From Rugalucina vietnamica (Eukaryota; Mollusca; Bivalvia; Lucinida; Lucinidae), in contig OZ024873.1 of the NCBI GenBank assembly GCA_964017185.1, forward strand, positions 48,036,760 through 48,100,759: 64,000 bases of DNA, written 5' to 3'. The notes under the pieces were generated by a model, which did not search any database, had not been told where the DNA came from, and saw only the letters and a program-made list of their open reading frames with translations. Position numbers and translations under genes: made by a program. The stretch's first letter is position 1; the number at the start of each line of letters is the position of its first letter. Of the stretch, positions 3,959 to 54,100 are shown piece after piece.

Positions 3959-4673
3959 ATGATGAATATGACCTTGATAGCAGTTTTATTCATTTTAAGT
4001 GCTACCGCAATCGCAAGAGCTTGCAATGCGTCTGAATTTAACAGTTATATTCGGAATTTTTCACAGACTTTATGTCCGCTAACGGATTATTGTTTTACGA
4101 AATCAACTGGTATGTTAAACAATGAGACGTTCATACCATGTTGCTCTGAATGTTCCTGTGATGCTTCCACCTGTTACCAAACTGAAAAGTGTTGTCCGGA
4201 TATAGAATCAATGCCTGACAAACTAACTGGCCTGATGTGTGCGGACACTATGACGAAAACAATCAACATAGGTACGAGGCAAACGCCAAATCACAATGGT
4301 TTTGAACATGGTATTAAACGATACTTCATAATTACTAGTTGTCCAATAAAGTATAAAGATGATTTTATTAATTCCAAATGTAGGGGCGACAATCAGACTG
4401 ATCTTGATGATTTTCTTTGGGTTTCTAATGTAGAAAGCGATACAATTTATCAAAATTACTACTGTGCCATATGCCATGGAGTAGAAAACTGGGTGACTTG
4501 GAACTTAAGAACTAACTGTTATCCTATATTAATGGAAATTGGGTATAAGAACATTACAGTGACGCTGCTCTCAGACGATTGTGAAATTGTAAACGAAGTT
4601 CCAGAATCGAAAGAAGACGTTTCACAGAAATATCAGTGTTACATTCCAGACTTTACTTCCTGCAATATATCAG
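3959..4673 (+). CDS. Copy A exon 1: signal peptide + somatomedin-B-like Cys-rich ectodomain
   Basis: This is the first coding exon of the first paralogue (238 codons plus one base; donor CAG|gtaatt, phase 1). Residues 1-22 form a hydrophobic signal peptide followed by ACNASEF. Around residues 59-81 a cluster CCSECSC..C..CCPD matches the C-x-C-D..C..CC-x-D half of somatomedin-B domains. Residues 144-150 read RGDNQTD, and about 162-171 read YQNYYCAIC, followed by HGVENWVTWNLRTNC. There are about 19 cysteines after the signal and several N-x-S/T sequons, as expected for a secreted glycoprotein. The frame continues past the donor to a stop at 4757-4759, which would be the intron-retained form. 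The fold resembles mollusc methuselah-like GPCR ectodomains (family knowledge). A function as receptor or decoy is inference. The start is chosen by homology of the signal peptides among copies. Confidence 0.8.
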
Positions 4674-5094
4674 GTAATTATACAGACACTAAGCTATGCG
4701 TTATACCGATGGTATACTGTAAGTCCGTTCAAAGGTTGTCTTTTCTAAAACTGATCTGATCGGCCAATTGCATGCAAATTTTAGAGGGATGGGATAATAA
4801 AAGATTATATAAATTGTTCAGGTCTTTTTGGTCGTACTTTTGTCTCGGGATATTTTCAAAGGAACATCCTAAAACATCACAAACAATGCTAATGTGACAA
4901 ATCGATAAATTGTTAAACAATGAGTAATTAATAAGGACACGTCCAACTTGTACCTACGTCAGTAAGATATACAATATTCTGAGACATGGCATACCAAGTG
5001 GCGATACAGTTACCGTGTTGTTGAAAAATATCACGATACCATGTCCATGCAATTATACGCATTATACAGGCTTTTAGACTCGTTAGACCCGCCT

Positions 5095-5766
5095 CGGCAA
5101 TTGCACGCCGGTGAATCGGGCGTCAGACTCTGTGATGTCCCCGACATTAAGTTATTCATTTTAGTTGGTAGGAGCTTCTTGTCTGTTACTTGCCCCACCG
5201 GGGTTCAACTGGTGTTCATCTTTTGTTCCGTGTTTCAGAAAGTTATTCAGTGCCAAGGGATCTTCATAGTCGGGCAGCTTACTGAATCTGTTGAGTCCTC
5301 GTTTTTGATTCATCTGGGTGGTTATCATGATTTATTTGTTTGTCCTTGATGATTCATTGTCTAGTTAGAGATTCGCCACGGGGACCTAACAACTAACAAA
5401 ATGTTGTGAACCACTGCAGAAGACGAGGTTGTGCTTATGCTCCTGTAAAACCGGTTCAAGCCCCGCAGTAATTTTATATTATTGATCGTTCCAATGCGAT
5501 AAGTCTGTTGTGGTTTCATTTTTTATGTTTTGGAGTCGAATTTTTGTACTGTTTGAACCTTATGTACGTTTTAATATTTTAATTCAAGTTCGGGTAACTG
5601 AGTCTCTGCCTATTAGGAAAAAGCTGCTCACTCGGCTTACGATATGTTTTCTAAGTATAAGTACATGCAGTTTGTCAATTTTGCTTTTTTCCACCTCGGA
5701 TTTTGGAGTGGGGATTTCTTTCTGATTGGGCCTTTGCTTGATTATTGTCTACTTGTACCTTTCTAA
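5095..5766 (+). mobile_element. LINE 3' end (R1 family), intron 1 of copy A
   Basis: This is a 5'-truncated copy of the retroelement whose coding end is seen at 45704-46912. It starts in the last codons (equivalent of GRASDSMMAPT, stop) and runs through the ~620-bp 3' UTR with the landmarks GGAGCTTCTTGTCTGTT, CACCGGGGTTCAACTGG, GATTCATTG, GATCGTTCCAATGCGATA and CTACTTGTACCTTT. Sense strand is plus. Confidence 0.8.
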
Positions 5767-5772
5767 TGCCTA

Positions 5773-6884
5773 GGTCACACTAGCACTTATGGACGCTGCG
5801 CGAACACTGCGGATAGGACTTCCGTATTTATCCGTCCTATCCGTAACGATTCGCAACTTATCCGTAATGTCCGTACCTGTACGTGTATTATATACAGGAC
5901 CTGGAAGATCCGCAGACAAGCTTTGACAATTGTAAAAATAACAGGCACAGATGAAAAATCCGTAATGATAGGTAAAAGTATTCGAATCTGTTGGTATCTA
6001 ATCGGTATCAAAACCTTATCTGTTACGTAACTAAACGTATGTTTCCGCATGCATTTGTTGCGGTTCGATACTGTTTCCTATGTGTTGTTTCGTTCGGTTA
6101 CTGTCTTTGTCGGCGTACAGTTATGTTATGAAAACTTTCGTTATCACCGTAAACCGCTTACTCACTGGATCGCCCGTGTGTCCAATGCTTACAAATATGC
6201 ACGTGCGTTCAATGCGTTCCTTTCGTGAGTATGAAAAATATGGATTGCTCAGAAAAGGATTTTGCATTGCTTAAATAGCTAAGAGGCTGCAATACCCAAG
6301 ACAAATAGGAGAACAAATATACAAACACACAAACAAACAAACACACAAATGTTACTAATATTATAGTATTATGCGAAGTGATTTCCGTGGCTTTACGACT
6401 ATCACTCGATTGATCAATCACTGGATGGATCAGTCAAGAGATCAATCATGCCAATCGATCGATCAATCAATCGACAGATTAATCTACCGATGGATCATTC
6501 AATCACTCGATCGATCAATCGCCCGATCGATCAATTTATCACTCGATCAATCAACTGATCGATCTATCGATCATAGATCAATCACTCGATCGATCACCCG
6601 AGAGATCGATTCACCGGCGATCGAGCAATTTTAAAATAGACCGATAGATCAATCAACCAAAGCATGTTATGTTCTATAAGTTCTTCACGTGCAGATATGG
6701 ATGTTTCGTCCGTATCGAATTTTTGTGTGTTTTTTTTTTCAAATTTTGGAGCGGATTCTACGGACCCTAAATATATAACACATACGGTCATATACGGATA
6801 ATATACGAATTGTTACGGATAGAACGGATAGATACGGAAGACTTGTCCGCAGCGTCCGTCGCATCCGTATGTGCTAGTGTGAAA
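5773..6884. mobile_element. Non-autonomous inverted-repeat element with TACGGA-rich ends
   Basis: The left end GGTCACACTAGCACTTATGG and the right end (complement TTTTCACACTAGCACATACGG) form inverted termini. The similarity continues for about 100 bp as interleaved words such as GGACGCTGCG, CTTCCGTAT, TATCCGTCCTATCCGTAAC. The interior carries a degenerate GATC/AATC repeat (6405-6660). No transposase frame is present. Superfamily is unknown, and no target duplication could be fixed. Confidence 0.65.
6405..6660. repeat. Degenerate GATC/AATC short tandem repeat
   Basis: Roughly 250 bp are dominated by GATCAATC, CGATCGATC and related 4-8-bp words. The open frame through it is a low-complexity Ser-Ile-Asp-Arg by-product of the repeat, not a gene. 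Confidence 0.8.
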
Positions 6885-7210
6885 ATTAACAGCGGTTGTT
6901 TACCTCACATTGCACTGTTCAATACACAAGAGAGCGTAAAAAATGCGTACCTAAAGGTGTTCGTCCGTATCTAAATGTTACAGATGGTATCGAAAGGTAT
7001 GTAGACAAGTTTCTTTTATATTCGTATTTATAGGTAATTATAATACGTAAATTCATTAAAAACAGTTAGCCCCGCCCGCAAAGCTTCACGGTAGTCTGAC
7101 CAATGCTTATTTGAAACATATGTTGAAGACAGATTAAATTATTCAACTCCGTGATTTAAACATCTTACTTAAAGATCAGCTTTATATTAACACATTATGG
7201 TTCTATTTAG

Positions 7211-7515
7211 GTGACTGGCAAAACTATGATGCAAAAATAGAGAAGGCTTGCCACAGCTTTACACAGATTTTCTTCAATCAAATGGCATTATTCGATGGTT
7301 ATGCTATTTATAAAAATGCGTTTTGCTGGCTTTGCAACCAAAAAGCCGAAACAGCTGTCCCGACCATGTGTCCGAATGTTGACACGTATTTTTCACGTAA
7401 ACCAATCGAAAGCTTCAGTGCTTTGGTCGACTTTAAGAGACTGGTGGAAACAAACAAAGGTTCCAATTTAGAATGGTGACAATGTTCTGTGGGGGAGATC
7501 TACGATAATTATTTG
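7211..7515 (+). pseudogene. Copy A exon 2: Cys module, with in-frame stop
   Basis: The acceptor TTCTATTTAG| is followed by GTGACTGG, and the donor is TTG|gtaagt. The 305-bp length equals copy B exon 2 exactly, and entry phase 1 matches exon 1. The translation carries the conserved K-A-C-H-S-F-T-Q stretch, then AIYKNAFCWLCN and a CP..FSRKPIESFSALVDFKR block. At 7477-7479 the frame meets TGA where copy B has CGA (Arg), 12 codons before the exon end; the residues beyond remain alignable (CS..GEIYDNYL). Copy A is therefore either a young pseudogene, a polymorphic null or a truncated ~316-residue protein. A single-base assembly error cannot be excluded. Confidence 0.75.
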
Positions 7516-13532: not shown

Positions 13533-14300
13533 AGGCGATGTAGAATCTTAGAATGTCCGATTGGAAGTTTAGCTGTCGATGGTGTGTGTCAACAAATAGT
13601 TACTCATATTGTCCAAGGTGGCAGACTGGATATTATGTTAAAGGTGAATATTCATTCAAATTGGACTGACATTAATGACACAAATGCCGAAGCTCAACTG
13701 GGACAAAAGGTAGCTGAAGTTCTCGAAGACAGTATAGGATTACACTTGTGCGGCAGCTGCTCTGTCAGTGTATACACAGACAGATCATCGTACTCAGGAC
13801 GAAGCAGCGAGGTCAATGTATATTTCGAAAAGCGTTTTACACCGTCATGTCAATTAGAATTCATATATGAGACAATCTTGAAGGTCTCCGGAAAACAACT
13901 TGAAATACTACGGACGACGTTCGTTCATATCACGGCAATAGCTACGATTGCAGAAAAGGCCGACTATGAGAGGTACAATTATTATCGCCCTGAACAACTT
14001 TTCTCTAGAAACGATAACTACTGTAGTTCAAAACTGAAAGTAGTTATTCGAATAACGGAACCTCTGTGCCCGCGTATTCAGATAGCATTTTCCGAATCAG
14101 GAAAGCTAAAGCAGAAAAACAGAAAACAAAGTTTTCATGCATTCTTCGAAAACCTGGATCAGATAAATGATAATACGACTGTTCATGTGTGTGTCGCCGA
14201 TTACGTAAAGGTTATGCGCATTGCCAGTAGGTCGGCTAAAACGCATGTGGTTGGGTATGTACGTTCGTTCGTTATGTTTCTTTATATGTTTACTCTTTAG
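13533..14300 (+). CDS. Copy A exon 3: C-terminal Cys domain and hydrophobic tail
   Basis: The acceptor CATGCATTTCAG| gives phase 0, matching exon 2, and the open frame encodes 255 residues to TAG at 14298-14300. It opens RRCRILECPIGSLA, contains GLHLCGSCS, PSCQLEF, a Tyr-rich stretch, TEPLCPRIQIAFSES and HVCVADYVKVM, and ends in a short hydrophobic stretch (FVMFLYMF). The equivalent exons of B and C have the same motifs in the same order. The frame itself is intact although exon 2 has a stop, so loss of this copy would be recent. A GTATGT string near 14253 could act as a donor to a further exon, but no membrane-helix exon is visible downstream. Confidence 0.75.
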   Translation, partial: RRCRILECPIGSLAVDGVCQQIVTHIVQGGRLDIMLKVNIHSNWTDINDTNAEAQLGQKVAEVLEDSIGLHLCGSCSVSVYTDRSSYSGRSSEVNVYFEKRFTPSCQLEFIYETILKVSGKQLEILRTTFVHITAIATIAEKADYERYNYYRPEQLFSRNDNYCSSKLKVVIRITEPLCPRIQIAFSESGKLKQKNRKQSFHAFFENLDQINDNTTVHVCVADYVKVMRIASRSAKTHVVGYVRSFVMFLYMFTL

Positions 14301-19267: not shown

Positions 19268-19973
19268 ATGGTGTTTATAGAAGTTTTATTTATTTTAATT
19301 GCGTTTAGAATCTCAGGATGTAGCGGTGCGTTTGAACTTAGTAGCTATATTCGAAATTTTTCACATACCGTGTGTCCATTCACAGATTATTGTAGTACGA
19401 AATCAACAGGTGTGTTAAAAGATGAGGTAGCCATGCCATGTTGCTCTGAATGCTCGTGTGATGTTTCTATCTGTTATCGTACTGAAAACTGTTGCCCGGA
19501 TATAGAACAAACAACCATTAAAACATCCGATCTGGTATGTGCGGATACTATGACGAAATTCGTCAAAGGTAGGATCTGGTCACCTCCAAATCACAATGGT
19601 ATTGAAAATGGAATAAAACGATACTTTATCATTACTTATTGCCCTAAAGAATATAAAGATGATTTTGTTAATTCAAAATGTAGGGGCGACAATCAGACTG
19701 ATCTTGATGATTTTCTTTGGGTTTCTAATGTAAACAGACATACAATATATCAAAATTATTACTGTGCCCTATGTCATAAAGTGGTAAACTGGGTGAATTG
19801 GAACTTAAGAACCAACTGCTATGCTAGATTATTGGAAACTAGGTTTAAGAATATTACAACAACGTTGCTCTCGGACGAGTGTAATATTGTAAACGAAGCT
19901 CCCGAATCAAAAGTGGCCGTCTCACGGACATATCGGTGTTACATTCCGGACTTTACTTCCTGCAATAAAACAG
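19268..19973 (+). CDS. Copy B exon 1: signal peptide + somatomedin-B-like Cys-rich ectodomain
   Basis: 235 codons plus one base; donor CAG|gtaaca, phase 1, as in the other copies. The signal peptide is MVFIEVLFILIAF. The cysteine cluster CCSECSCDVSICY..CCPD and the modules CRGDNQTDLDDFLWVS and IYQNYYCALCH align residue for residue with copy A. A 57-bp stretch (19676-19732) is identical at nucleotide level to copy A, well above the roughly 80% identity of the surroundings as judged by eye. Exons 2 and 3 lie at 20990 and 36708, and the whole gene is about 18.2 kb because intron 2 has absorbed several kilobases of mobile DNA. The predicted product is about 600 residues. Of the three copies, B and C have uninterrupted frames in every exon. 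Confidence 0.82.
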
Positions 19974-20989: not shown

Positions 20990-21294
20990 GTGAGTGGTCG
21001 CACTATGATCCAAACACAGAGAAGGCGTGCCACAGCTTTACCCAGCATTTCTTCAAACAGGAATTTTTATTTGAAACGTTTGCTATCTACAAAAATGTGT
21101 TTTGTTGGCTTTGCAACGCCAAACCTGATGATGATATTCCAACTTTGTGTCCAGATCTAAAGGCGGGTTTTTCACGTAAACCATTCGAAAGCTTCAGTGC
21201 TTTGATCGACTTTAAAAGAATGGAGAAGACAGACAGGGATTCCATTTTAGACTCGCGACGATGTTCTTCCGGGGAGATATACGATGAATGCTTT
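20990..21294 (+). CDS. Copy B exon 2: YKNxFCWLCN module
   Basis: Acceptor TTCTATTTAG|GTGAGTGG and donor TTT|gtaagt; 305 bp, entering in phase 1 and leaving in phase 0. The translation runs EWSHYDPNTEKACHSFTQHF, then AIYKNVFCWLCN, a CPDLKAGFSRKPFESFSALIDFKR block and RRCSSGEIYDECF at the end. The YKNxFCWLCN motif echoes the IYQNYYCALCH motif of exon 1, which suggests an internally repeated module. The frame is intact, unlike the equivalent in copy A. Confidence 0.82.
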
Positions 21295-21549
21295 GTAAGT
21301 CAGCGGTGGGGATATACTTTATCAAAGCTGTTATGATTTTTCCTTAAAAGCTACTGTAATATAGTCGACTTTACAGTTTACTATGGCTGTCATTCTAAAA
21401 AAAGGTACAGCAAAGCAATGATCAAGAACTGGCCCAATCAGCAGAAAAGTAAATTAGGTACCGATACAATGAGAGCATACAGTAAGCCAGCCGAGTGTGC
21501 AGCTACTTTCGAAGAGGTGACCACTCCGTTACCTGAGTTTAAATAGATA

Positions 21550-21741
21550 ATGTGAGCCTTCGCATGAGAAAACCAACTATTTGCATATGCGAAAACAAAG
21601 ACGCAAATCAGCTGTGCACTACTATTCCTCTTCTACTTATAAGTTTCAAGCTTTTAGCTTTACATTGTCATTGTACAGTCTGGTTTGTGTCGGACCTGGT
21701 CGGAAACCCAAATTGTTGGTTTTCTCATGCATAGGCTCATG
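21550..21741 (+). mobile_element. MITE-2 copy, intron 2 of copy B
   Basis: ATGTGAGCCTTCGCATGAGA start and TTTTCTCATGCATAGGCTCAT end, with GTGTCGGACCTGGTCGGAAA inside. The central self-complementary segment is shortened. Confidence 0.75.
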
Positions 21742-21904
21742 TAGTCTTTGGGGCCGTGCAGTTCTAAAACAATGGGGAAACACACCACTACATATGACGT
21801 CACGTAACGTCAGATACACGTTATCAAGGTTGCAAAACACAACTGTGCCGGATAATTCATTTTCGAAGACACGTAGAATAACAAACTAAATCTAAAATCT
21901 AACA

Positions 21905-23602
21905 TACTTCTGTTGTGGTTCTAATTGTTTTGTGTTTTGGAGTCGAAATTTCGTGCTGTCTTATTTACGTTTTGCATAGTTGGTTGGGGCAGGAGCTTCT
22001 TGTCTGTTGCTTGGCCCACCGGGGTTCAACTGGTGTTGTTCTTTTGCTCCGGAGTCAGTAAGTTATTTGGCGCCCAGGGATCTCCATGGACGGGCAGATT
22101 ACTCAATCTTTGAGTCCTCATTTTTGATTCATCATGGTGTTTATCATGATTTATTTGTTTGTCCCAGATGATTCACCGACAGGCTAGAGATTCACCACGA
22201 GAACCGAACAACTAACTAAATGTTGTGAACCACTGCTGAAGCTGAGGGTGAGGTTAGGTACCTGTAAAATAAGGCTTCCAGTAATTTTATATTTCTGATC
22301 GTTCCAAGGCGATACTTCTGTGGTGGTTGTTATTGTTTTATGTATTGGTGTTTAAACTTTTTTGTGCTTTTGACGTCTTATGTATGTTATATATGACAGT
22401 TACTTGTCGAAAGATGTGCATTCAGTACTGGTAAACTTCCCAAGAAAGTATGCCCAGGAAAGTATGATGTTATACATATGACGTTTGCTTGTTGTCCTTA
22501 GCAATTTTTTACTTTTAGTGTCCCAAATATTGGACATAAACAGGTTGTTTACTTCAGAATTTTCTAGAAATTTCAAATTGTTCTTTGACGGAAAAGTCCG
22601 GAAAAACCTGGAAAGATGTAGAATCTTCTAGAAAAATCTTTTTTATGTCAAAAGAATATTGTGAAATTTTATGGAAGGATAATGGCCTCTCAAGAATATT
22701 CCAAAACATTAAATTTTGGTAAACAACTTGTTATTTTTAGTATATGATATCATAGAATTTGGTGGAAGAATCCTGAATGTTCCTCCGTGCTATATAAGGG
22801 CTACAAATTTTCATAAGGACAATCTTTGGGTACTGTTACTATTAAGAAGTCAAAATTTATCTTACTGGAATTTAAACTTATTCTTGGATTACTTTGTGAT
22901 ATTCGATTCTGGATTGGGACATAGTGCTATTTTGAAACAAACTTTAATTCTTGGGATCAGAAACTGATACAGACTTGTGTTAAAAAATTCTGAGGGACAT
23001 TCAGACATTCTTTAAGGGAATTAACATCTTGAAAGGTATTGTACATTCATTTTTGTTTGATTGTATATATGCTTTTGATTGTTTCACATGTAATTACTGG
23101 TTAAATCACTTCTAAATAGATTTGTTAAATTTTAAACAAAGCTTGTTGCTGGCTAACCAACTTGTTGGTTTCCTTAATCTTCTAGTTACGCCTGGCACGT
23201 AACATGTATGTTAACATATTTTTAGATAAGCTTAGGTAACTGAGTGGTCACCTATTGGGAAAATAGCTGCTCATTCGGCCTACGATATGTTTTCATGATG
23301 GTATAAGTACCTGATTGTTAATTTAGTTTTTCCCACCTCGGTCTTTGGAGTGGGAATCTTTGTCTGATTGCGCCGTTTCCTGATCGTTGCCTACTTGTAC
23401 CTTTTCATATTTTTAGTTAAGTTTGGGTAACAGAGTGGCCGTCTATTGGGGAATAGCGGCTCACTCGGCTTACGATATATTTTCTTGTTGTAAGTACCTA
23501 AGTGCCATATGACATTTTCCCACCTCTCGGTTTGTGGAGTGAGAATTTCTTCTGATTGCGCCATTTCCTGATGATTGCCTACTTGTACTTTCTAAAATAT
23601 AG
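21905..23602 (+). mobile_element. LINE (R1) copy interrupted by a solo LTR, with repeated 3' end
   Basis: R1 3'-UTR landmarks run from GGAGCTTCTTGTCTGTTGC through GATCGTTCCAAGGCGATA to CTTATGTA at 22384, and resume after the solo LTR as TGTATGTTAACATATTTTTAG at 23205. The last ~190 bp occur twice (to about 23402 and again to about 23600), a partial tandem duplication. A piece of mid-UTR sequence (21905-21965) also precedes the start of the copy. Confidence 0.75.
22385..23204 (+). mobile_element. Solo LTR of the Gmr1-like Ty3/gypsy family
   Basis: 820 bp starting TGTTAT and ending GTAACA, clearly the same family as the LTRs at 26387 and 33271 but in the opposite orientation. The target duplication TGTA (22381-22384 and 23205-23208) is confirmed by the uninterrupted LINE copies that read CTTATGTATG. 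It is more diverged than the paired LTRs are from each other, so it is an older fossil. Confidence 0.88.
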
Positions 23603-23795
23603 ATTGCTACATGTGGAATGGTAAAACATTGTCTTCATTAATTTGAAAAGAGACGTCACATGGCAAAAAGAGTAAAGTGGCTTTTATTGCTAGATGTTGC
23701 ATACCGGTTTTATGTAAAATAGACGCAGAGTAAAGTACCCGACCCCTGCCCTGTCACCCGATTAAAATGTCCTTGGGGTAAAAATGCTACTTTTC

Positions 23796-23796
<1 letters not shown>

Positions 23797-23849
<53 letters not shown>
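23797..23849. repeat. Poly(T) run, about 53 bp
   Basis: Uninterrupted T tract in intron 2 of copy B. Confidence 0.9.
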
Positions 23850-23853
<4 letters not shown>

Positions 23854-24119
23854 CAACTCCACACATTTTCCACACATGACTATTGACCCCGCCTATTGCG
23901 ACCTGAATAAATAAAATGGGCTGATTTTGCCTCCAGGCAAAGCTTAAATGCTACTGAATGACCACCTGATTACTGGTTAACAGCCAAAATGAGTTCGGTT
24001 CATATATTTTCAAGTTAACAAGTAGTTATTCAGTATTTACTGTTAAAGGAATTAATTTAATTGATTTACCAAGTATATTCCATGACATACTAGTTAAGAC
24101 AGGAATTGAGAAAAGTTAA

Positions 24120-26386
24120 CAAGTACAGGCATTTTGTGAGGAAAAGGGTTTGACACTTGAACTAGGGGTATTTTGGTGTGCTGAATCCAAAAACCAATGT
24201 TGGCAAGTTGAGAAATGACGTCTTCATGACCTAATTTGCATATTTTCAAAATGGCCGCCAAAATATCTAGAATTTGTTATATTGATGAAACGTTTCATTT
24301 ATCTGTCATGATCTGAGCCTAAAATCACTTAAAATATATTGTTAGATGATTGCTTGACTAAATTACATAAATTTAAATGCAAAGAATTTTTGCCCGCAAA
24401 GATAATCTCAATCGCACTATGAAAAATGCATGGTTCCCATGGCAACTGTTAACATGATTCTTGACGAGGGTTGTACCTACAAAATTGATCATATCACCAC
24501 AGTTGCTCGTCCAAGATCACTAAGCCTGGTCTCGTTGTTATGCTTAGACATATCCCTTTTATCCTGTTGTAAGAGATGCAAATTATCTAATTTGCATATT
24601 CATGAATTTTAATGAAAACATTAAAAAATGTTCAAAATCCGTAAATAAACATTTTTTAGACCCAATCCATCGTTATGATACTGTTATTGCACTAGCAATA
24701 ATGTGACAAATTTATTGATGTCAGGGACCTATTTGAAAATTTTATCTCATTTGCATATTCAGTAATATTAATTATAATGTTGGAAACTGGGGCGAAAATC
24801 AGGGGTAAACTATTGCCATTGGAAGTTTGTTTTTTTATTATAAGATCTTTCATGCATTTTAGGACAAATTTTCATGGCTTCCTGTTTGGTCAGAGGGATT
24901 ACTTAAATGCTGTGAAATATTGTCCTCAACAATGAACATATTTGCATGATGTAAAACCATATTGTTTCGGCGCCCATCCATTGTGTGATTCTAGAGAATG
25001 GGATGTACTTACAAAAATACCCATATCCTACCAATAGCATACTCTAGAATACTATGATTGATCTGATAGTAGTGCTTGGACATAAAAAATTAATGGTAAT
25101 CCAAATATTCAAATCATTGAAATTGCATATTCATGAATATTAATGAAAATCATAAGAAATGGGAGAGAAATCATGGAAAAAATATGGGGTGTACATACAA
25201 AATACCTTGTACCCGGGCTGTAAATAAACCTAGGACGTTGAAACTGGTATCAAATAAATGCCAAGGTGTGATACTACCCCTTTGAAGTGTGATATAAGAA
25301 ATATTTTATTTTCTATTTTATGTATATTAGTAGAAACTTATGAAATTGGGAGAAAAAAAAGGTAAGATTAAACAGATACACCTTCAAATGCACTTGTATC
25401 TTGGCAACCAAAAGCCCTTAAGCGCTGAAAGGAATTAAATGGTTGCTAGGGCAATATTATACCATCCATACTGTAACAGATAAGTTATCTGAGTTTCATT
25501 TTCATGGATATTAATAAAATCTTTAGGAATTGGGGTAAAATGCAGAAAAAATAGGAGGTATACATTTAAACACATGTATCTTGGCTACTGAAGGACCTTA
25601 AAAGCCGAAGTTGAAATCAAAAGATTGCTATGACAGTGTTCTATAATGATATGATCTGATATATAAGGCATCTAGATAATTTTGTTGTATGGATATTAAT
25701 GAAATCTTTTAAATTAGAGAAAAATCACCTAAAAGTAAAGGCGGTATACCAACAAGGTTGCTTATATCTCCACTGCTAATACTCTTAGAGGGATGAAAAT
25801 GGTACCCATATAATGTTAGGAAAATGTAGTCTGATAGGTAAACAGTATCTGATTAAAAACCATTTGGTCTGATAGATAAATCGTATCTTATTAAAAGCCA
25901 TGGATGTTACGAAAATTTGTAAAAAATACATAAAACTGAAGGTTGTGCTCAAACAAAACCGCTTGTATCTTGGTTGCTAACAAATATGCTTTATAAACCT
26001 GAACATATGGCAATAACAGATTGTACGTGTACTAGCAATAATTTGGTGCCACTTTGACCTCTCTAAGTCTATTTGCAGTCCAGATATAAGCAATTTTATT
26101 GGTAAACCCCCTTCATTTTCCAGCCATTTTTCTCTTATTTATACAGATCTTAATAACATTCATACAACAAATATGTCAGATAAAGCAAATAGCAGTTTAT
26201 ATGGTTATAGAACATTGTCTGAGGAATCATTTGATACCGATTTCAGCTCTCTATGTCTATCAGTAACCATTATATTAGCGTTTTTTTATGTGTATACCAC
26301 CTTATGCTTTCAGCAATTTACCCCGATTCCTAAAAATGTTATCAATATTCATGAAAATAAAAATCAAATGACTTATAAATTGTTAT
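24120..26386. repeat. Palindromic AT-rich repeat, left arm and centre (copy 2)
   Basis: The left boundary block (AAGTACAGGCATTTTGTGAG, then CCAAAAACCAATGTTGGCAA) reappears inverted at the far end of 34101-35425. Between them the sequence is built of degenerate modules of roughly 150-350 bp, each carrying TTCATGAATATTAATGAAAA or its complement next to a run of A-rich 'GGGAGAAAAA' sequence. The sense of the modules flips near 25950-26050. Without the retroelement inserted at 26387 the palindrome would be about 3.6 kb. There is no coding capacity. Confidence 0.7.
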
Positions 26387-27216: not shown

Positions 27217-27363
27217 CTTAGCCTCTTCAAAGAAAAGAAAGTTTTATAAAATAAAGCTTTCTTTTGCAATACTGGATAATTGTATACAATATGTTTAGCA
27301 AAATTTGTGCAAAACTAATCAAATACAACAGCACAAAGCTGGACATCAGCATTGTAGAGGCAC

Positions 27364-31189: not shown

Positions 31190-32055
31190 CACTGAAGAGC
31201 TTTAAAAACGCAAAAAAGAAAATTGGTAATTTTTTGCACGAAGGATATTTTAAGTCTTCCGTAACAGGTGAAAGGGATCAGTAATTGTACTCTGCTTCCA
31301 TTTTTACACGAAACCGGCATTTGTAAAGTCACTGACCCACCACAGGAATAAAAAGCCAGTTTATACTTTTTGCCATGTGGCGTCATTGAATTAATGAAGA
31401 AAAACATTTGAACATTTCACACGGAGCTTGTAGTAATCCATATTTAAAAAACACTTTAGTTTTCGTTTTGTTTCATTTTTGACAATTCTATGGGTCTTTG
31501 AAAATGAATTATCCATCACAATTGAATTTTTACAAACTTTATGACGTATATGTGACGCCACGTGACGTCACAATTACCATTTTTCATCTATACGGCACTG
31601 CAGCAGTCCCTCCGAGGCTATTGGGACAGTGAAAGGTTGACACCGGTCTGATCAACCGAACTTTTCACGTCAAGGCACTAATGTCTCTAGAGATTTGACG
31701 TTAAAACGCTATATTACGTGGATTACGTCGACAATGACCAATCAGACAAGCTAGCATTATTGGCATGCAATCAAGGCAATTGGCAAAACCTGTGCTTTTA
31801 ATGAAATAGCAATGCTCTTTGTGCCAAGGAACAAATTGTAGTCGTGCTCAATATCTTTCGCAGTTTTGGATTTTAGGGGTTTAGCTATAGCAAGGACTGT
31901 AACTCTCACATTTCTCATTATTTTGATACGAAATTCACAGCATAGTTTTCAAACATATCAATGTGTATGTGTGTCAAATTGCATAAAAATCGAATTACTA
32001 GAAGTATGAAAATACAATTGAATTACAACTTTTGCGTTTTTAAAGCTTTTCAGTG
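31190..32055. mobile_element. 866-bp TA-flanked inverted-repeat insertion within the retroelement
   Basis: CACTGAAGAGCTTTAAAAAC at the left and its near-perfect complement at the right form termini of about 26 bp. TA dinucleotides at 31188-31189 and 32056-32057 are the likely target duplication, as in Tc1/mariner-type elements. No transposase is recognisable inside. It separates the Gag and Pol regions of the host element and so is younger than it. Confidence 0.8.
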
Positions 32056-32057
32056 TA

Positions 32058-33157
32058 TGAGTCAAAGCATAGTCATCAGCTAAACGTGCTGCTGTTTCCA
32101 AGTTTTCAACTTCTCTTTCGTTCAAGAAAGCCTTAACATCAGAATTTATGCACCATTTGAATTCTTCAACAAGCATGAGCTGCCTTAGCTTTGCATGATC
32201 AGAACCTACTTTCTTTGAAGAACACCATCTATCAAATAGTTGCTCTTTTGTTCTAGCAAACTCAACATGAGTCTGGTCATGTTCTTTTCTACAGTCTCTA
32301 AATTTCTGCCTGTATGCCTCAGGGACCAACTCATAAGCCTTAAGAATAAATTCCTTTACTGTATCATAATCTGAGCTTTGCTCAAGAGAAAGCTGAGTGT
32401 AAATTTCTCGAGCTTTACCAATTACAACACTTTGCAAAAGCAAGGTTCAGTGCTCTCTTGGCCATTTCAAGTTTTCTGCCACCTTCTCAAAATGTAAGAA
32501 ATATTTGTCAACCTCTTTTTCTTGAAATAAAGGAACGAGACGAATGTGTTTTGTGACATCAAATACTGTACTAGTAGCCAAAGGCAAAGATTTTGATTTT
32601 GATTTGTCATTAAGTTCAATTTCCTTCATTCGTAACTGAAATTGCCTTTCTCTTTCTTTTTCTTCAATTTCAAATTTAAATTTTTCTTTTTCAATTTCAA
32701 GCCTTTCTTCTCTTTCTAATTTTTCTTTTTCTAACTCAATTTTTTCTCGTTCTAATTCTCTTTGTTTTTCCTTCTCTCGTTCTTCCATTTCTAACTTTTG
32801 TTTATCCATTTCTAACTTTTGTTTATGCATTCTTTCTTCCCGTTCTAAAGTTTCCCACCTTATTCTTTCTTCATACTCAAATTTTAGTTTTTCCATCTCA
32901 ATTTGTCTTTTGATTTCTAGTTCCCTCAACTGCAAGTCAGTCTGAGTGACTAGAATCTGAGAAGTAGCCGAGGAATCAAAAATTTCCTCGTCAACAAAAA
33001 ACTGAATCAAAATGCTCTTAATTTCATGTTTTAACATGGAAGTCTTGATATTTGACAACCCATAATGATCAGCTATGTCTAAGAGGTCACTCTTTTTGGC
33101 CTTATCTAACAGCTCCTGAGAAGGCGCAGCAATAAAGTCACTTAGTTTGAATGACAT
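32058..33157 (-). CDS. gag: Gag region of the Gmr1-like element
   Basis: The minus-strand frame begins MSFKLSDFIAAPSQELLDKA near 33157, passes through a long Glu/Lys/Arg-rich coiled-coil segment, and enters a capsid region with motifs VPLFQEKEVDKYFLHFEKVA and LVPEAYRQKFRDCRK. The latter resembles vertebrate SCAN domains, which are known to derive from Gmr1-like Gag. Treated as a fossil; it is not fully intact. Confidence 0.85.
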
Positions 33158-33245
33158 GGTTGCTTTTTGCTGGCTTTAGCTATTTAAACAGCAAACAGTG
33201 AAGATACTTTAGAATTTCAAATAAATTTGGTGCACAAGAAATTTC

Positions 33246-33266
33246 AATCCCGGACTCGAGCCCCCA
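33246..33266 (-). other. Primer-binding site of the Gmr1-like element
   Basis: Read on the minus strand, TGGGGGCTCGAGTCCGGGA starts four bases inside the 5' LTR. It complements a tRNA 3' end terminating in CCA; the tRNA species was not determined. Confidence 0.7.
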
Positions 33267-33270
33267 ATTC

Positions 33271-34100
33271 TGTTACGTGCCAGGCGTAACTAGAAGATTA
33301 AGGAAACCAACAAGTTGGTTAGCCAGCAACAAGCTTTGTTTAAAATTTAACAAATCTATTTAGAAGTGATTTAACCAGTAATTACATGTGAAACAATCAA
33401 AAGCATATATACAATCAAACAAAAATGAATGTACAATACCTTTCAAGATGTTAATTCCCTTAAAGAATGTCTGAATGTCCCTCAGAATTTTTTAACACAA
33501 GTCTGTATCAGTTTCTGATCCCAAGAATTAAAGTTTGTTTCAAAATAGCACTATGTCCCAATCCAGAATCGAATATCACAAAGTAATCCAAGAATAAGTT
33601 TAAATTCCAGTAAGATAGATTTTGACTTCTTAATAGTAACAGTACCCAAAGATTGTCCTTATGAAAATTTGTAGCCCTTATATAGCACTGAGGAACATTC
33701 AGGATTCTTCCAGCAAATTCTATGATATCATATACTAAAAATAACAAGTTGTTTACCAAAATTTAATGTTTTGGAATATTCTAGAGAGGCCATTATCCTT
33801 CCAGAAAATTCCACAATATTCTTTTGACATAAAAAAAAAGATTTTTCTAGAAGATTCTACATCTTTGGTTCTTCCAGATTTTTCCGGACTTTTCCGTCAA
33901 AGAACAATTTGAAATTTCTAGAAAATTCTGAAGTAAACAACCTGTTTATGTCCAATATCTGGGACACTAAAAGTAAATAATTGCTAAGGACAACAAGTAA
34001 ACATCATATGTATAACATCATACTTTCCTGGGCATACTCCCTTGGGAAGTTTACCAGTACTGAATGCACATCTTTCAACAAGTAACTGTCATACATAACA
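33271..34100 (-). repeat. 5' LTR of the Gmr1-like element
   Basis: 830 bp, paired with 26387-27216. On the plus strand it reads TGTTACGTGCCAGGCGTAAC at its start and CATACATAACA at its end. Confidence 0.9.
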
Positions 34101-35425
34101 CTATATAGGATGGCATAGTATTGCCTTAACAACCATTTGATACATTATTTAAATTAGGGCTTTGGGTTGCACAGATACAAGCCATTTCTTACGTTAATCC
34201 CTTTATTTTTCCATTTTTTCTGTCCTGTTTTTAAACATTTTATTAATATACATGAAAATACAAATCCAATTATTCTTATATCATATTTCAGAGTAATAGT
34301 ACATTGCCACAGCATTCCTTTGATATCTCTTTCGGCATCCTAGGTTCATTAACAGCCTGGGTAAAGCTGTTTTTGTACGTATACCCCCTATTTTTTCCAC
34401 AATTTTTCTCCCATTATGATTTTTATTAATATTCATGAATATGTGTAAATTCAATGATTTCAATATTAGTTATGAAGGTTAAATTGCTATGTCAATGCAA
34501 TACTATCAGACCAGTCATAGTATTCTAAAGTATGCTTTTGGTGGGACGTGGTGGGTATTTTTGTAAGTTCATCCCATTCTATAGAATCACACTAGGGGTG
34601 GTTTTGGAAAAAAATGTGATGTTAACATCATGCGAATGTGTTCATTGTTGAAGACAACTTTTTGTGGCATTTAATTTGCCATCTGACCAAACTGGCAGCC
34701 ATGAAAATTTGTCCTAAAACGATCATATAACGTACCAAAAACCAAATGGCAATAGTTTTTCCCTGGTTTTCGCCCCTATTTTTGACATTTCATTTAATAT
34801 TCATGAATATGCTAATGAGATGAGTTTTATATTGACCCATGAAATCAATATATTTGTCATATATGGTATTACTTGTGCAATAACAAGTTGTCATATTGAT
34901 AGCTTTGGCCTGAAATTGTTTATTTATGGATTTTAAAACCATTTTCCAGCCATTTTTAATGTTTTCATTAAAATTCATGAATATGCAAATTCGATAATTT
35001 GCATTACTTACCAAAGGATCAAAAGGCTATATCTATGCTTTACAGTGAGTCCAGGTGCAGTGGTCTAGGACTCGTTACAGTGGAAATATGATCACTTTTG
35101 TGGGTACAAGTAGAAAGCCCACACCCCTGCCCCCTCCGCACCCCCACATCAGCCTTTTAACTTTTGAGACTTTTTTATTCATTGAAGACCTTCTAATCAT
35201 TATAAAATGTAATTTTTATTATTTTGTAGCAGTTTAGAATCCTGAACATATACCAATTCGCAATAATTGGTGTTTTTCTTAATTTTGGCGGCCATCTTGG
35301 AAATATGCAAATTAGATGGTGAAGGAGCCATTTCTCAGCTTGCCAACATTGGTTTTTGGATTCAGCATACCCGAATACCCCTAAAAATGATCTCAAACCC
35401 TTTTCGTCACAAAATGCCTGTACCT
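34101..35425. repeat. Palindromic AT-rich repeat, right arm (copy 2)
   Basis: Continuation of 24120-26386 beyond the inserted retroelement. Modules with ATTCATGAATATGCAAAT recur at roughly 34240, 34425, 34790 and 34970, and the outer end (near 35330-35425) is the inverted counterpart of 24120-24230. Confidence 0.7.
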
Positions 35426-35700
35426 TGATAACGAAGCGTCTTTTTCTCATTTTCTGTCCCTTTATGTCTGTAACGTGTAATGATTTTTCTGAACTGAAAA
35501 GAAAAATCGTTCCTTCCTCTAAGTTTTTTAAAGTTGTAAACCAAGTCACCTAAAAATTCTGGTTCCGAAAGGCCCTCACGCAAAAGCGTCTTTAGCCCAA
35601 AATTACATTTGGTAATCAAGTCACAGTGTCTGCGAAAAAAATTAGAAAATGGGTTTCGAAGTTTATGATAACGATAGATAGCATCAGGGAGAGGTGTTCT
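35426..35700 (-). mobile_element. LINE (R1) reverse-transcriptase C-terminal fragment
   Basis: The minus-strand reading contains the blocks VGLKTLL/GLKTLLREGLSEPEF and GDLVYNFKKL..FQFRKIITRY, matching the end of the frame at 46330-46902. Only this part of the coding region is present; it abuts the palindromic repeat. Confidence 0.75.
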
Positions 35701-36250
35701 ACAAAGTCTTTATAACTCCTGACCCTGTGATGACTTTGGCCTATTTTACGGCAAGGTCAACGTAGGTCGCCAATGCATTTGAATAGAGAAAATTGTCAAA
35801 ATGCCATTTGCAGGAAAACACAAACTTGAAGGAAATGGGCAAGTGGACTGAAGATTCAGGGTTCTGAAAAAATTGGACCACATGGACTGGTCTGCCCCCA
35901 CCGCGGGACAATATACATGTTTATTACATAATATTCAAAGATTTTCTTTGAAACCACTTTGAAACCACTTGTTTTCATAATGCTATGTACATTAATACTC
36001 CAAGTCACATCACTCAGATGGCCGCCATGCCCATATATGGGAAAACCTCTTCAAAATCTTTTTCTCTGGAACCTGTTGACCGATTTCGACAAAACTTGGC
36101 ATGTAACATGGAGGAGCAGAGTTCTACAATGTGTACATACAGTATAATCCTGTGATGACCTTGACATATTTACGGCAAGGTCAACTCAGGTCGCATATGC
36201 AGTAAACTGTTTCAATGTCATTGAAGGGAAAAACTTCCAGGAAATGGGCG
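35700..36250 (+). repeat. R2-type repeat fragment
   Basis: Recurring blocks CCTATTTTACGGCAAGGTCAA, AAAATCTTTTTCTCTGGAAC and GACCGATTTCGACAAAACTT, with two unit equivalents, match the internal units of the 57011-59137 copy. The boundaries AGCTCACCTGAG/CTCAGGTGAGC are absent. Confidence 0.6.
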
Positions 36251-36707
36251 AACGGACAGAATATTTACGATTTATTGATTATGCATATAGGACATGCTGC
36301 TGTAAGCTAGTGTGTTAAGCTGCTGTAATTTGACGTTTAGATACTGATTCCTTAATAAAACCAGTAACGCCACAGACTTGCATTACATGGCCCAAAGTGT
36401 TTGTTGCATTTCTTAGGTATATTTGTTTGGCTGTCTGTCTTGTTAACAACGAATACACAAAATTTTATGAACGTATACACACGGGAGATAGTTACAAATG
36501 GAGGTTATATATAATAAGTCTTCCCGTCTCTATCTTTCCACATTGGAATCAAATGGTTGTTCCCTTACTATTTTAATACATTAATGTTTAGATCTAGGAG
36601 TAGTAGCCCGCTCGTGCACAATGACCGTTTAAGGTATAGTGTCACGTCGCACAACTTTAGTACCTGCTGTCGTATTAATTCCTTCCTTTATTCATAATGT
36701 ATTTCAG
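36251..36707. other. End of intron 2 of copy B
   Basis: No gene or recognised repeat. It ends in the exon 3 acceptor ATAATGTATTTCAG. Confidence 0.5.
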
Positions 36708-37499
36708 AGGCAATGTAGGACCTTAGAATGTCCACTTGGAAGTTTAGCTGATGACGGTGTTTGTGAAGCTGTGGTCTCTAGCATTGGTAATGATGGTGGA
36801 CTGAAGATTTTATTTAAAGTCGTTATATATTCAAATTGGACAGCAATTGCTGCGACAAACGATAATTCTCAATTCGGACAAAAAGTCGCAGAAGTGTTAG
36901 AAGATCTTATAGGATTACACAAATGCGGCAACTGCTCAGCAAGTGCATACACAGACTTGTCATCATACTCTGGACAGACCATCGAGGTCGACGTTTATTT
37001 CGAAAAAAGTTTCACACCGTCATGCCAATTAGATTTAATACACAGAAACATCTTAGCGTCCTCAGGAAAACAAATAGAAATACAACTTACTTCATTAATT
37101 CGTCTGGCGGCAACGGCTACGATTGCAGAAAAAGCAGACTATGAGAGGTTCATGTATTACCGCTTTGATCGACTTTTCTCCAGAAGTGACAACTTCTGTA
37201 GTTTTGGCACATCACATTTACAAGTTACGGAGCCTCTTTGCCCGCGAATTCAGATAGCTTTTTCAGAATCTAAGAAACTTAGACATGGGACAAAGAAACA
37301 AAACTTTCTCGCTTTCTTTGAAAATATGAACCAGGAAAATGACACCACGATCGTTCATGTGTGCACCACTGACTACTTCAACGTTATGCGCCAAACCAAT
37401 GGTTCGTCTTCAAGGCATCAGCTTGGATCTTGTATTTTCTTTATGTTTTACCAGATTTTACTCTTGAACGAGATGTTCATTATTTACATGCAAACATGA
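36708..37499 (+). CDS. Copy B exon 3: C-terminal Cys domain and hydrophobic tail
   Basis: Acceptor GTATTTCAG|, phase 0; 263 residues to TGA at 37497-37499. It opens RQCRTLECPLGSLADDGVCE and contains GLHKCGNCSAS, TPSCQLDLI, AEKADYERFMYYR, TEPLCPRIQIAFSES and VHVCTTDYFNVM. It ends with a small-residue patch (NGSSS) and a tail of about 25 hydrophobic residues (FMFYQILLL..). Such an ending is compatible with GPI anchoring or a single membrane span (inference). The frame stays open upstream of the acceptor, but the homologous boundary and the AG fix the exon start. No GPS motif or seven-helix region is seen. Confidence 0.82.
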   Translation, partial: RQCRTLECPLGSLADDGVCEAVVSSIGNDGGLKILFKVVIYSNWTAIAATNDNSQFGQKVAEVLEDLIGLHKCGNCSASAYTDLSSYSGQTIEVDVYFEKSFTPSCQLDLIHRNILASSGKQIEIQLTSLIRLAATATIAEKADYERFMYYRFDRLFSRSDNFCSFGTSHLQVTEPLCPRIQIAFSESKKLRHGTKKQNFLAFFENMNQENDTTIVHVCTTDYFNVMRQTNGSSSRHQLGSCIFFMFYQILLLNEMFIIYMQT

Positions 37500-44498: not shown

Positions 44499-45195
44499 AT
44501 GGTATTCAAAGAATTTCTGATAGTTTTATGTGCCACCATGATGGTAAAAACAAGCGGAGAATCTAATATCAGCAGTTATATACGGAATATTTCACAAGTT
44601 TTGTGTCCATTTACAAACTTTTGTTCTACGAAAACGGAAATATCTGACAATGAAAATATTACTCCCTGCTGCTCGAAATGTTCTTGTGATAGATCTACCT
44701 GTTACCATACTGAAAATTGCTGCCCGGATATAGAACCGATACCCACGATTTCCACAAACATGATATGTGCGGACACTATGACTAAATTCAGGCACTGGCT
44801 TTCCCCGCCCAAGCACAATGGTTATACATACGGCATTAAATTTTATTATATTGTAGCTAATTGCCCTACAGGCTATGAAAACGAGTTTGTTGACGCCAAA
44901 TGCAGGGGTCAAAATCAGACGGAGCTGGACGATTTTCTCTGGGTTTCTCACAAAACAAACAATGTGATATATCAAAATCAATATTGTGCAAAATGTCATG
45001 GTGTCGAAAATTGGGTGTCTTGGAACTTAAGAAGTAATTGCATTACGCAATTAATTGACTCCGGTTTTAATAATTTAACCACAGTCCTTCTTTCTGATGC
45101 ATGTGAAATTCATAACGAAGTACCAGAATCCAAAGAAGATGTTTCAAGACGATATCAGTGTTACTTGCCAGACATTACTTCTTGTAATGTATCAG
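44499..45195 (+). CDS. Copy C exon 1: signal peptide + somatomedin-B-like Cys-rich ectodomain
   Basis: Donor CAG|gtattg, phase 1, the same boundary as in A and B. I take the ATG at 44499 because MVFKEFLIVLCATMMV aligns with MVFIEVLFILIAF of copy B; an in-frame ATG three codons earlier (44490) is also possible. After the signal the motifs are SSYIRNISQVLCPFTNFC, CCSKCSCDRSTCYHTENCC, CRGQNQTELDDFLWVS, IYQNQYCAKCHGVENWVSW and QCYLPDITSCNVS. It is the most diverged copy but has all exon boundaries and cysteines conserved. Exons 2 and 3 are at 48411 and 53333, giving about 590 residues. Confidence 0.82.

Positions 45196-48105: not shown

Positions 48106-48181
<76 letters not shown>
48106..48181. 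repeat. (AAT)n followed by poly(A)
   Basis: AAT units from 48106 run into an A tract of about 45 bp ending at 48181. Confidence 0.95.
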
Positions 48182-48185
<4 letters not shown>

Positions 48186-48207
48186 CAATATACATGTACT
48201 ATTCACA

Positions 48208-48361: not shown

Positions 48362-48410
48362 TGGTAAATGATGCATTCTTTCGATTTTGAACATTTTCGG
48401 ATCTCTTCAG

Positions 48411-48718
48411 GGCTCTGGACACACTATGATTCGAGTATCGAAATAGCGTGTAGCAGCTTCAAACAGATATACTTTAAGCAAGTAGACTCACTCATCGATT
48501 TTGTCATCTACAAGAACGTGTTCTGCTGGCTTTGTAATGAAAAAGCTGAACCAGATGTCCAAACACAGTGTCCACACCTGGGGGACTATGCGATACGTTC
48601 ACCGTTCAGTAGTTTCAGCGGTTTGATCGACTACAAACGACTGGACGAGATGTCGATAAAGGAATCGACAGTAGAAAGCCTACGATGTGCTAGGTCGGAA
48701 TTTTGGGATAAATACCTG
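48411..48718 (+). CDS. Copy C exon 2: YKNxFCWLCN module
   Basis: Acceptor ATCTCTTCAG|GGCTCTGG and donor CTG|gtaagc; 308 bp, one codon longer than in A and B, phases 1 in and 0 out. The translation carries LWTHYDSSIEIACSSFKQ, then VIYKNVFCWLCN, a TQCPHLGD..SPFSSFSGLIDYKR block and RCARSEFWDKYL. The frame is intact. Confidence 0.82.
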
Positions 48719-52026: not shown

Positions 52027-52988
52027 GAAAAAAAGCAAATTTTCTTTTTATTTTATACAATACACAGGCATTTTCCAATTCACAAGGCAGGCGATGAAAA
52101 TGCAAAAACCAAAATTTTTTGAAAACACAAATAATTTTGGTACCACACTGTTCCTTATGATCTAACTAAGAAAATGAATACCCACACTTTATGTTTTCGT
52201 TCACAAATAACGGAGTTATAGGCGTTTGAATTTCTGAAGTGAGACACATTTAATGACGTCAAGTAAATGGAAACGTCAGAAGTAATCCAAAATCTACAGT
52301 GACGATATAGGCTGATATCAGTCACTAGTGACTTTTGATATCAGTGAGATTTGATATCAGTGAAATTTCATATCAATGAAAATACCAATTTTATCAAGTT
52401 TTGATATACATTGGTTTTCACTGTAAGGTATAAAATAAAAATACTTATCTACCCTGGTAGTCTGACCCTGCGTACACGTGTTCCTTTTCAACATTGACGT
52501 AACTTCGTTGCTAAGTGCATTCGACGTCGGAAACGTTCTATTTCAAAATGGCAAACGCAATTACAATGTTTTTAAATGTAAATAATATGAAAATCAAGCT
52601 GCGTCACCTTGAGATGTGCAAGAAAAAGAATTTATAATGCAACCACCCTACATATCGGCCTAATAAAGGGGGATTCATAAATAGAATCTTTATTTAGCTA
52701 CTGACCGAATAAAGGCCATCTCTACTGATTAAATAAAGACCGCGTTGCAATTTTGTTTAACGCAACAAAACGAAGCGCGCCAGTGACGTCAGTTACGTTT
52801 TGTGACGTCAATCTCCGCCATTCTTTATCAACAAAATCTACTGCTATGGTGGCCTATTTTGAGAAGTCGTTCAGCGGAGTGATTGCTAAAGCTGTTGACT
52901 AAGTAAGCAAAATGGCGGAAAGCAAATCTCCTCACATTAGGTGAGTTTTTTCGCGAAATTTGTCGGCTTTCGTTGCATTATAAAGTGA
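52027..52988. other. Intron 2 of copy C with clustered TGACGTCA-type words
   Basis: No gene. Short GATATCAGTGA repeats lie at 52310-52380, and CRE-like words (GTGACGTCA, ATGACGTCA, TTGTGACGTCAATC) at about 52254, 52784 and 52800. Confidence 0.5.
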
Positions 52989-53122
52989 ATAACTACCCCG
53001 CGACCAAAAATTAACTGATTTATCACGCTCGGACCGTAAGAAGATAAAAGGGCTCGCTGAAAGCTCGCCCTTTCATCCTCTTACTAATCCTCACGTGATA
53101 AAGCGGTCACGGGGTAGTTATT
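52989..53122. repeat. 134-bp hairpin near copy C exon 3
   Basis: ATAACTACCCCGCGACC, TTTATCACG and AAAGGGCTCGC are mirrored by GCTCGCCCTTT, CGTGATAAA and GGTCACGGGGTAGTTAT. It ends 210 bp before exon 3. Confidence 0.8.
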
Positions 53123-53332
53123 TACTATATACCATGCCTGTAAGGTACGGATAGACAAATCTAATCCTCGGGTCACAGTTTGGTATCTCTCGGTGAGCCT
53201 TGCTCGTGGTGCCAAAACGATCCTCAGGACCGATTTGTATAGCCATCCCCGACACTAATGTTAGATTGTTAAATTCTTAACTAAGGAAAATTGTTTTTTT
53301 TTCCCCCCAATTTATAGGTTTCATTTTTACAG

Positions 53333-54100
53333 GGACGATGTAGGACATTAAAGTGTCCGTTTGGAAGCCTAGCCTTCAGCGGTGCATGTAAACAGATTGT
53401 GTTTGATATTGTCCACAAAGAGGTCTGGATATTATGGATAGTCAACATCAAATATAACCGGTCTGAAATAGCTGACAGCCAAAAGGCGTCGCAGTTGGGA
53501 CAACAGATTGCAGAGGATATTGAGAATCGCTTAGGTCTTTATTCATGTGGCAACTGTTCACTGACGGTAAGGAAATCCTCCATCGATCGAGAGGCCATAG
53601 ATATTCTTGTTTTGTTAAAAAAACAACTGACACCATCTTGTCAATTAGATCTCATACATAAAGGGGTCCGAGCGGTCTCCGGCAAGAAAATGAGTATACG
53701 ATTAACCCCGGGGATTCTTTTAATGGTTTATGCCAAAATTGCGACAAAACGGGACTATGATGATATACTGATAGGTTCTGAAGTAATATATTATAGACAG
53801 GAAGAATTTTGCCATGGGAAAACACCATTCCACATCACAGAACCGGTGTGTCCACTCATAACGCTGACCTATTTAGAATCAATCAAACTGGAACACGAGA
53901 ATAAGAAAAACGCATTTCTCACTTTCTTTGAAGACGTTGAACACCGAAATGAATCAACAACAGTCCACGTTTGTACCGAGGACTATATTACAGCCATGCG
54001 TCAAAGTAGCGGAACTTCATCAAGCACACAGCTACAGTTTGTTGCTAGGCTTGTAAATCTTACGACTTTACTGACCTATCTGTTATGCATTTGCATTTGA
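53333..54100 (+). CDS. Copy C exon 3: C-terminal Cys domain, GPI-like tail
   Basis: Acceptor CATTTTTACAG|, phase 0; 255 residues to TGA at 54098-54100. It opens GRCRTLKCPFGSLAFSGACK and includes GLYSCGNCSLTV, TPSCQLDLI, ITEPVCPLITLTYLES and VHVCTEDYITAMRQ. The end is SSGTSSS followed by a spacer and LVNLTTLLTYLLCICI, the classical arrangement of a GPI-attachment signal (small residues, spacer, hydrophobic terminus); attachment is inference. No GPS or seven-helix region follows within 10 kb. Confidence 0.82.
   Translation, partial: GRCRTLKCPFGSLAFSGACKQIVFDIVHKEVWILWIVNIKYNRSEIADSQKASQLGQQIAEDIENRLGLYSCGNCSLTVRKSSIDREAIDILVLLKKQLTPSCQLDLIHKGVRAVSGKKMSIRLTPGILLMVYAKIATKRDYDDILIGSEVIYYRQEEFCHGKTPFHITEPVCPLITLTYLESIKLEHENKKNAFLTFFEDVEHRNESTTVHVCTEDYITAMRQSSGTSSSTQLQFVARLVNLTTLLTYLLCICI

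Follow-up and report, generated by a model that had tools for sequence, protein, structure and literature searches.

Three tandem genes for cysteine-rich proteins

We analyzed a 64,000-nucleotide stretch of Rugalucina vietnamica contig OZ024873.1 (C5:48036760-48100759, within a genome of 1.09 Gb in 47 contigs), called the window from here on. It carries three plus-strand genes, A, B and C, that encode cysteine-rich proteins. Exon 1 of gene A (3959..4673, with a GT donor after 4673) encodes a signal-peptide-like start, the cysteine cluster CCSECSC..CCPD and a YQNYYCAICH module. A phase 1 intron (4674..7210) separates it from exon 2 (7211..7515), which encodes a YKNAFCWLCN module, and exon 3 (13533..14300) runs from CRILECPIGSLA through VHVCVADY to a hydrophobic tail and a stop codon. 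Gene B consists of exon 1 (19268..19973), intron 1 (19974-20989), exon 2 (20990..21294), a 15.4-kb intron 2 (21295..36707) enlarged by an antisense long terminal repeat (LTR) element, and exon 3 (36708..37499). In gene C, exon 1 (44499..45195, 697 bp), intron 1 (45196-48410) and exon 2 (48411..48718) are followed by exon 3 (53333..54100), whose tail resembles a glycosylphosphatidylinositol (GPI) attachment signal.

All nine exons have matching plus-strand frames in the stop-to-stop open reading frame (ORF) list of the window. The six introns have canonical GT..AG borders and share phases 1 then 0, as the preliminary description of this DNA had proposed for three plus-strand three-exon genes, and every motif that it listed was found in our alignment of the three. 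Its size estimates hold for exon 2 (305, 305 and 308 bp in A, B and C) and exon 3 (768, 792 and 768 bp), but its range of 706-715 bp for exon 1 does not cover gene C. Over the whole coding sequence (CDS), identity is 63% for A/B, 48% for A/C and 49% for B/C. Each protein has 33-35 cysteines and 8-10 N-glycosylation sequons, and the cysteine cluster is kept across all three. Their N-termini look like signal peptides by eye.

The reading frame is uninterrupted for 600 codons in gene B and for 590 in gene C. In gene A, exon 2 contains an in-frame TGA (7477-7479, codon 328), and the genome search also shows one TGA there; gene A is therefore not intact in this assembly. The TGA could mark a pseudogene or a null allele, or else be an assembly error. 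The preliminary description had overlooked this codon; only B and C are intact.

Whole-CDS pairwise ratios of nonsynonymous to synonymous substitution rates (dN/dS) were 0.38 for A/B, 0.18 for A/C and 0.23 for B/C, so these frames are under purifying selection. The 17 closer family pairs for which values were printed ranged from 0.19 to 0.82. Every computable value was below 1; two exon values for A/C were not computable because dS was saturated. The ratios for the array genes and the family pairs together rule out frames that are open by chance. Nor do the 17 pairs, taken as pairwise, whole-pair values, indicate positive selection overall, of the sort that an immune arms race might have left behind.

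A genome-wide family

Searching the genome with exon 1 of gene B gave at least 95 matches, 64 of them strong (E<1e-14) and 31 weaker. These lists, like those for receptor cores below, are lower bounds, as the searches score best candidates only, and the 64 are places in the genome, a few of which may be broken or represent separate fragments of a single gene. Twelve of the 95 matches share 52-100% identity with the query. Seven of these twelve lie at C5:47.978-48.136 Mb (three minus, four plus), forming a cluster of about 170 kb, and the others lie on C5 at 23.1, 60.3 and 69.8 Mb and on C7 and C8. A separate exon 2 and a downstream exon 3 are present in 12/12 of these close genes; the one at C5:23.12 Mb has its exon 3 divided between two frames. 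The idea of three isolated genes is ruled out by the cluster and the genome-wide matches. The seven-gene cluster bears out the local expansion that had been suggested, but the family is spread across the genome and is not local only.

Matched stretches were free of stops in 91/95 exon 1, 53/54 exon 2 and 22/24 exon 3 matches. Broken copies occur as well: an exon 3 at C5:48120408 (TAA), a fragment at C5:48000730 (two TGA) and an exon 1 at C7:27080897 (two TAG). This mixture of intact and broken copies looks like birth-and-death evolution. Another subclade gave 22 exon 3 matches. Frames in many of these are 266-353 residues long, and two of the matches are fragments of a single broken copy.

Conventional domain searches gave little. 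No Pfam family matched B or C at E<=10, including somatomedin-B (PF01033) and Methuselah_N (PF06652). Among five relatives scanned, PF01033 was found only in L063, a distant full-length receptor, at E 3e-4 and 21.5 bits against a cut-off of 23.1. The somatomedin-B-like cluster of the preliminary description is conserved as a cysteine cluster in A, B and C; a Pfam somatomedin-B match is missing from B and C and falls just below threshold in L063. Searches of Pfam, NCBIfam and PDB sequences with the window proteins gave sub-threshold matches only. We took as chance both the Pfam ones (e.g., PF01531 at E 0.024) and the best matches of a profile search of PDB sequences, which were viral E2 glycoproteins (E 0.012). 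A structure model of exon 1 was unusable (pLDDT 29), and Foldseek with the exon 3 model returned nothing at E<=0.001. The GAIN domain with its GPS had no Pfam match above cut-off, and GAIN was not among the folds listed for the low-confidence exon 3 model, an absence that does not speak against it. With no Pfam model for these domains, such genes would stay uncharacterised.

Homology to receptor ectodomains

The array ectodomain is homologous to that of seven-transmembrane (7TM) class-B receptors encoded in the same genome. The same ectodomain modules occur in receptors L073 and L075, where exons 1 and 2 are fused. Their last large exon begins with C-R-x-[IV]-x-C and continues in one frame through a CxxDY-type motif (CADDY in L075, CHDTF in L073) into the first transmembrane helix (TM1). 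Seven other 7TM loci share this exon start, a CxxDY-like motif and TM1 in one frame; the motif is strictly CxxDY in 4/7 and similar in 3/7. A profile of the family's exon 3 (16 rows, from 16/24 exon 3 loci) matched a receptor exon 3 profile (9 rows: L073, L075 and the seven of L063-L072 other than L063, L064 and L066) at a probability of 98.2 (E 3.9e-13; 210 columns). When the family side was limited to the 11 close members, the probability was 97.5; a reversed control gave 0.4 and five column shuffles gave at most 0.1. Genome matches, receptor layouts and exon 3 profiles support the link to G protein-coupled receptor (GPCR) ectodomains that had been drawn from motifs. We use the label Methuselah-like loosely; the full-length relatives are candidate Mth/Mthl receptors in the strict sense.

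Two features of the receptors themselves were also seen. In L073 (C4:14285038-14288598), the start of the last large exon and the membrane-near part are separated by a long tandem repeat rich in proline. At C17:29.29-29.50 Mb there is a local group of full-length receptors with closely alike 7TM exons, some of them broken.

No 7TM core found

What separates the array genes from Methuselah-like and adhesion class-B GPCRs is the lack of a 7TM core. The B and C proteins contain no PF00002-like seven-transmembrane domain. Across the genome, the Pfam 7tm_2 model gave 113 matches, the 7TM of L073 gave 94 and that of L075 gave 79. In a hand-shortened union of the first two lists (117 rows), a same-strand 7TM lay no more than 30 kb downstream of 0/64 strong exon 1 matches versus 12/31 weak ones; some of the 19 weak matches with no 7TM in that range are pieces of strong genes. 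Since 30 kb is shorter than the longest genes, we compared all rows of the three lists again with the 64 strong matches. The nearest listed 7TM on either strand was then 59.8 kb away, the second 60.0 kb and the next 351 kb, and only 2/64 strong matches had one within 350 kb. The nearby 7TM exons that the preliminary description had named in advance as the observation to set against its proposal were therefore listed within 59 kb of none of the 64.

Degenerate remnants were not found either. A hidden Markov model (HMM) built from eleven 7TMs detected none, its best E being 0.018 in the window and 0.04 at the exon 3 loci; the same model scored 1.7e-97 and 2.6e-102 on two receptors, both of which are part of it. 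The gene ends that were read agree. A stop codon follows the CxxDY-type motif after 29-44 residues in 23/23 unbroken ends, a count that excludes three broken ends (L048, L051 and L052) and includes two found in flanks. A 7TM is likewise missing from the ends of L092-L095, four more relatives. One exon 3, at C5:20081070-20081741 (minus strand; exon 1 of the gene at C5:20087834), lies in a 710-residue open frame, far longer than in its relatives; the nearest listed 7TM is 59.8 kb from that exon 1. We regard the absence of a 7TM near family genes as strong but not absolute, as read from this assembly.

C-terminal tails

In the 7TM-less genes, the tails after the motif are hydrophobic and poor in charge. 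Only 13/276 residues in the last 12 positions are charged, compared with 63.6 expected from the body of the exon. We devised a crude GPI rule requiring a small attachment site, a spacer and an uncharged hydrophobic end. It was satisfied by 15/23 family ends versus 22/356 ends of stop-to-stop control ORFs, and within the family by 7/12 ends in the window clade and 8/11 outside it. Genes A and C pass; gene B fails, its longer tail containing one glutamate. A GPI-attachment signal is the most likely identity of these C-termini. The preliminary description had left the choice between cell-surface and secreted proteins open. The signal-peptide-like start and hydrophobic tail favor the surface, and secretion appears less likely than a membrane tether, even though the rule fails for 8/23 tails.

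Trees and intron 1

A tree of exon 1 with 41 rows placed 7 receptors and 34 7TM-less genes on opposite sides of one branch (support 95/95). This tree was trimmed of six long-branch rows (L063, L079, L081, L084, L085 and L091). The fuller tree of 47 rows comprised 29/30 exon 1 loci L009-L038 (L023, with internal stops, being left out), 15 fetched pieces and L063, L073 and L075; in it, 10/11 receptors grouped at 98/99. Both trees are unrooted, and in both the twelve window-type genes formed one group (100/99). The change on the dividing branch was presumably a loss of the 7TM. Loss is favored by Mth/Mthl receptors with somatomedin-B domains being reported, in the accessible text of PMC4768249, from a cnidarian and from deuterostomes.

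Intron 1 also sets the window clade apart. Exon 2 matches were paired with 63 of the 95 exon 1 matches, a gap of at most 100 bases counting as contiguous; 3/54 exon 2 matches had no listed exon 1. Exons 1 and 2 were separated by an intron in 12/12 close genes and were contiguous in all 39 pairable relatives (0/39 with the intron), at least two of which are receptors. The intron 1 donor is CAG|GT in 12/12 close genes. This distribution and the shared donor point to a single intron gain in the twelve-gene clade, which becomes a candidate case of that process.

Probable stand-alone receptor heads

We consider it likely that B and C, and A in its broken form, encode Methuselah-like/adhesion GPCR ectodomains without a 7TM core, probably GPI-anchored, that serve as non-signalling recognition, decoy or co-receptor proteins. 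The protein would enter the secretory pathway. Exons 1 and 2 would supply disulfide-rich modules, namely one somatomedin-B-like cysteine cluster and two modules of the YxNxFCxxC type, and exon 3 a cysteine-containing domain, perhaps of alpha/beta type, whose place in full-length receptors is immediately outside TM1. Past the CxxDY-type motif, where a receptor would enter TM1, a stretch of small residues, a spacer and a short hydrophobic end would act as the GPI signal. The resulting receptor head would be non-signalling and held by a lipid tether. It would bind a ligand and take part in recognition, act as a decoy or assist full-length receptors as a co-receptor, roles suggested by homology and topology. 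On this model a single loss of the 7TM core probably preceded the growth of the family to about sixty genes. Intron 1 would have arisen later, in the twelve-gene clade, whose members would have multiplied through tandem and dispersed duplications, with birth and death of copies.

Several points weigh against this proposal. The whole case is drawn from genome sequence, and the signal peptide was judged by eye alone. The 8/23 tails that fail the GPI rule, gene B's among them, could be short single-pass anchors, or their proteins could simply be secreted. Gene ends were read in 27 cases (the 23 unbroken ends and L092-L095); for the rest of the 64, the absence of a 7TM depends on genome searches in which only the best candidates are scored, and the extra part of the 710-residue frame at C5:20081070 could not be read. 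In the 47-row tree the very divergent L063 stands apart, so that the receptors need two changes, and with unrooted trees a gain of the 7TM by the other side is possible.

The most serious competitor, which we consider unlikely but well short of negligible, shares the loss of the 7TM and differs at the membrane: the ectodomains would be secreted or held by a short single-pass helix, and the hydrophobic end would be a remnant of the start of TM1. The tail does lie near the position where TM1 begins in full-length receptors, and the failing tails fit this idea. What speaks for GPI instead is that the tails stay charge-poor (13/276) despite differing sequences, and that family ends pass the rule more often than control ends. 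Two further explanations are much weaker. Ordinary adhesion GPCR genes, with 7TM exons downstream or joined by alternative splicing, would account for the strong ectodomain homology. They are very hard to reconcile with the distance of at least 59 kb from each of the 64 strong matches to any listed 7TM, with the nine receptors examined, in which 7TM and CxxDY-type motif share one frame, and with a window that has no 7TM remnant and unbroken ends that stop 29-44 residues past the motif (23/23). We give this explanation hardly any weight. Scarcely more probable is a cluster made up mostly of pseudogenes, decaying and functionless receptor pieces. The TGA in gene A and the three broken copies are what it would predict, but B and C are open throughout, every computable dN/dS is below 1 and nearly all matched stretches are free of stops.

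Beyond the array, we tentatively raise a broader possibility, which we hold with less confidence than the reading of A, B and C as tethered heads. A GPCR ectodomain may have been cut once from its core, given a GPI tether instead and multiplied, through birth and death, into a genome-wide repertoire of some sixty diversified, non-signalling surface receptors. If so, the size of that repertoire would be comparable to that of the related full-length receptor set in this genome, and it might serve, for example, in immune or self/non-self recognition or as decoys tuning the remaining full-length receptors.

Relation to known systems

Expansions of Mth/Mthl GPCRs, including one in Crassostrea gigas, and somatomedin-B ectodomains in some non-arthropod members are reported in the accessible portion of PMC4768249. 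The window genes have an ectodomain homologous to that of class-B 7TM receptors in their own genome, but they differ in having no 7TM and, for B and C, no Pfam match at all. Gpr126/Adgrg6 (6v55), an adhesion GPCR with a SEA-like domain, is also among the closest known systems. RECK, a GPI-anchored partner of the adhesion GPCR Gpr124/Adgra2 (PMC5200908, PMC4456509, as far as their available text goes), offers by analogy a precedent for the proposed co-receptor role, being a GPI-anchored extracellular protein that acts with an adhesion GPCR. The likeness is one of description, not of compared sequences, and the available text does not indicate that RECK originated from a GPCR ectodomain. Soluble N-terminal fragments of vertebrate adhesion GPCRs are reported to act without the 7TM in the accessible part of PMC13197933; those fragments derive from a full-length receptor, whereas here the ectodomains form a separate gene family.

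We found no description of a 7TM-less, GPI-tethered ectodomain family of this kind in the partial literature searched, which leaves most subscription journals outside it. Adhesion-type GPCR ectodomains have been studied mostly as parts of receptors. A large family that keeps this ectodomain by itself, under purifying selection, would demonstrate a function for the head that does not need the 7TM core; models of decoys or co-receptors for Methuselah-like receptors could then be tested on a natural case.

Other elements in the introns

Intron 2 of gene B contains an antisense LTR retroelement (26387-33570). Its two 300-bp LTRs (26387-26686 and 33271-33570) are identical, which indicates a recent insertion. 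In its minus-strand frame (27364-31416) an integrase-like part seems, by eye, to lie ahead of the reverse transcriptase, an order that we take to be that of Gmr1-like Ty3 elements. Antisense within intron 1 of gene C is a selenocysteine insertion sequence element, SECIS_1 (46288-46355, minus strand), which scored 39 bits against a gathering score of 35 and has AUGA and GA cores. No selenoprotein frame was evident nearby by eye, and a genome search with the element returned no match, not even itself, perhaps because its words are common. Intron 1 of gene A carries a short tandem array of GATCAATC-like units at 6403-6630.

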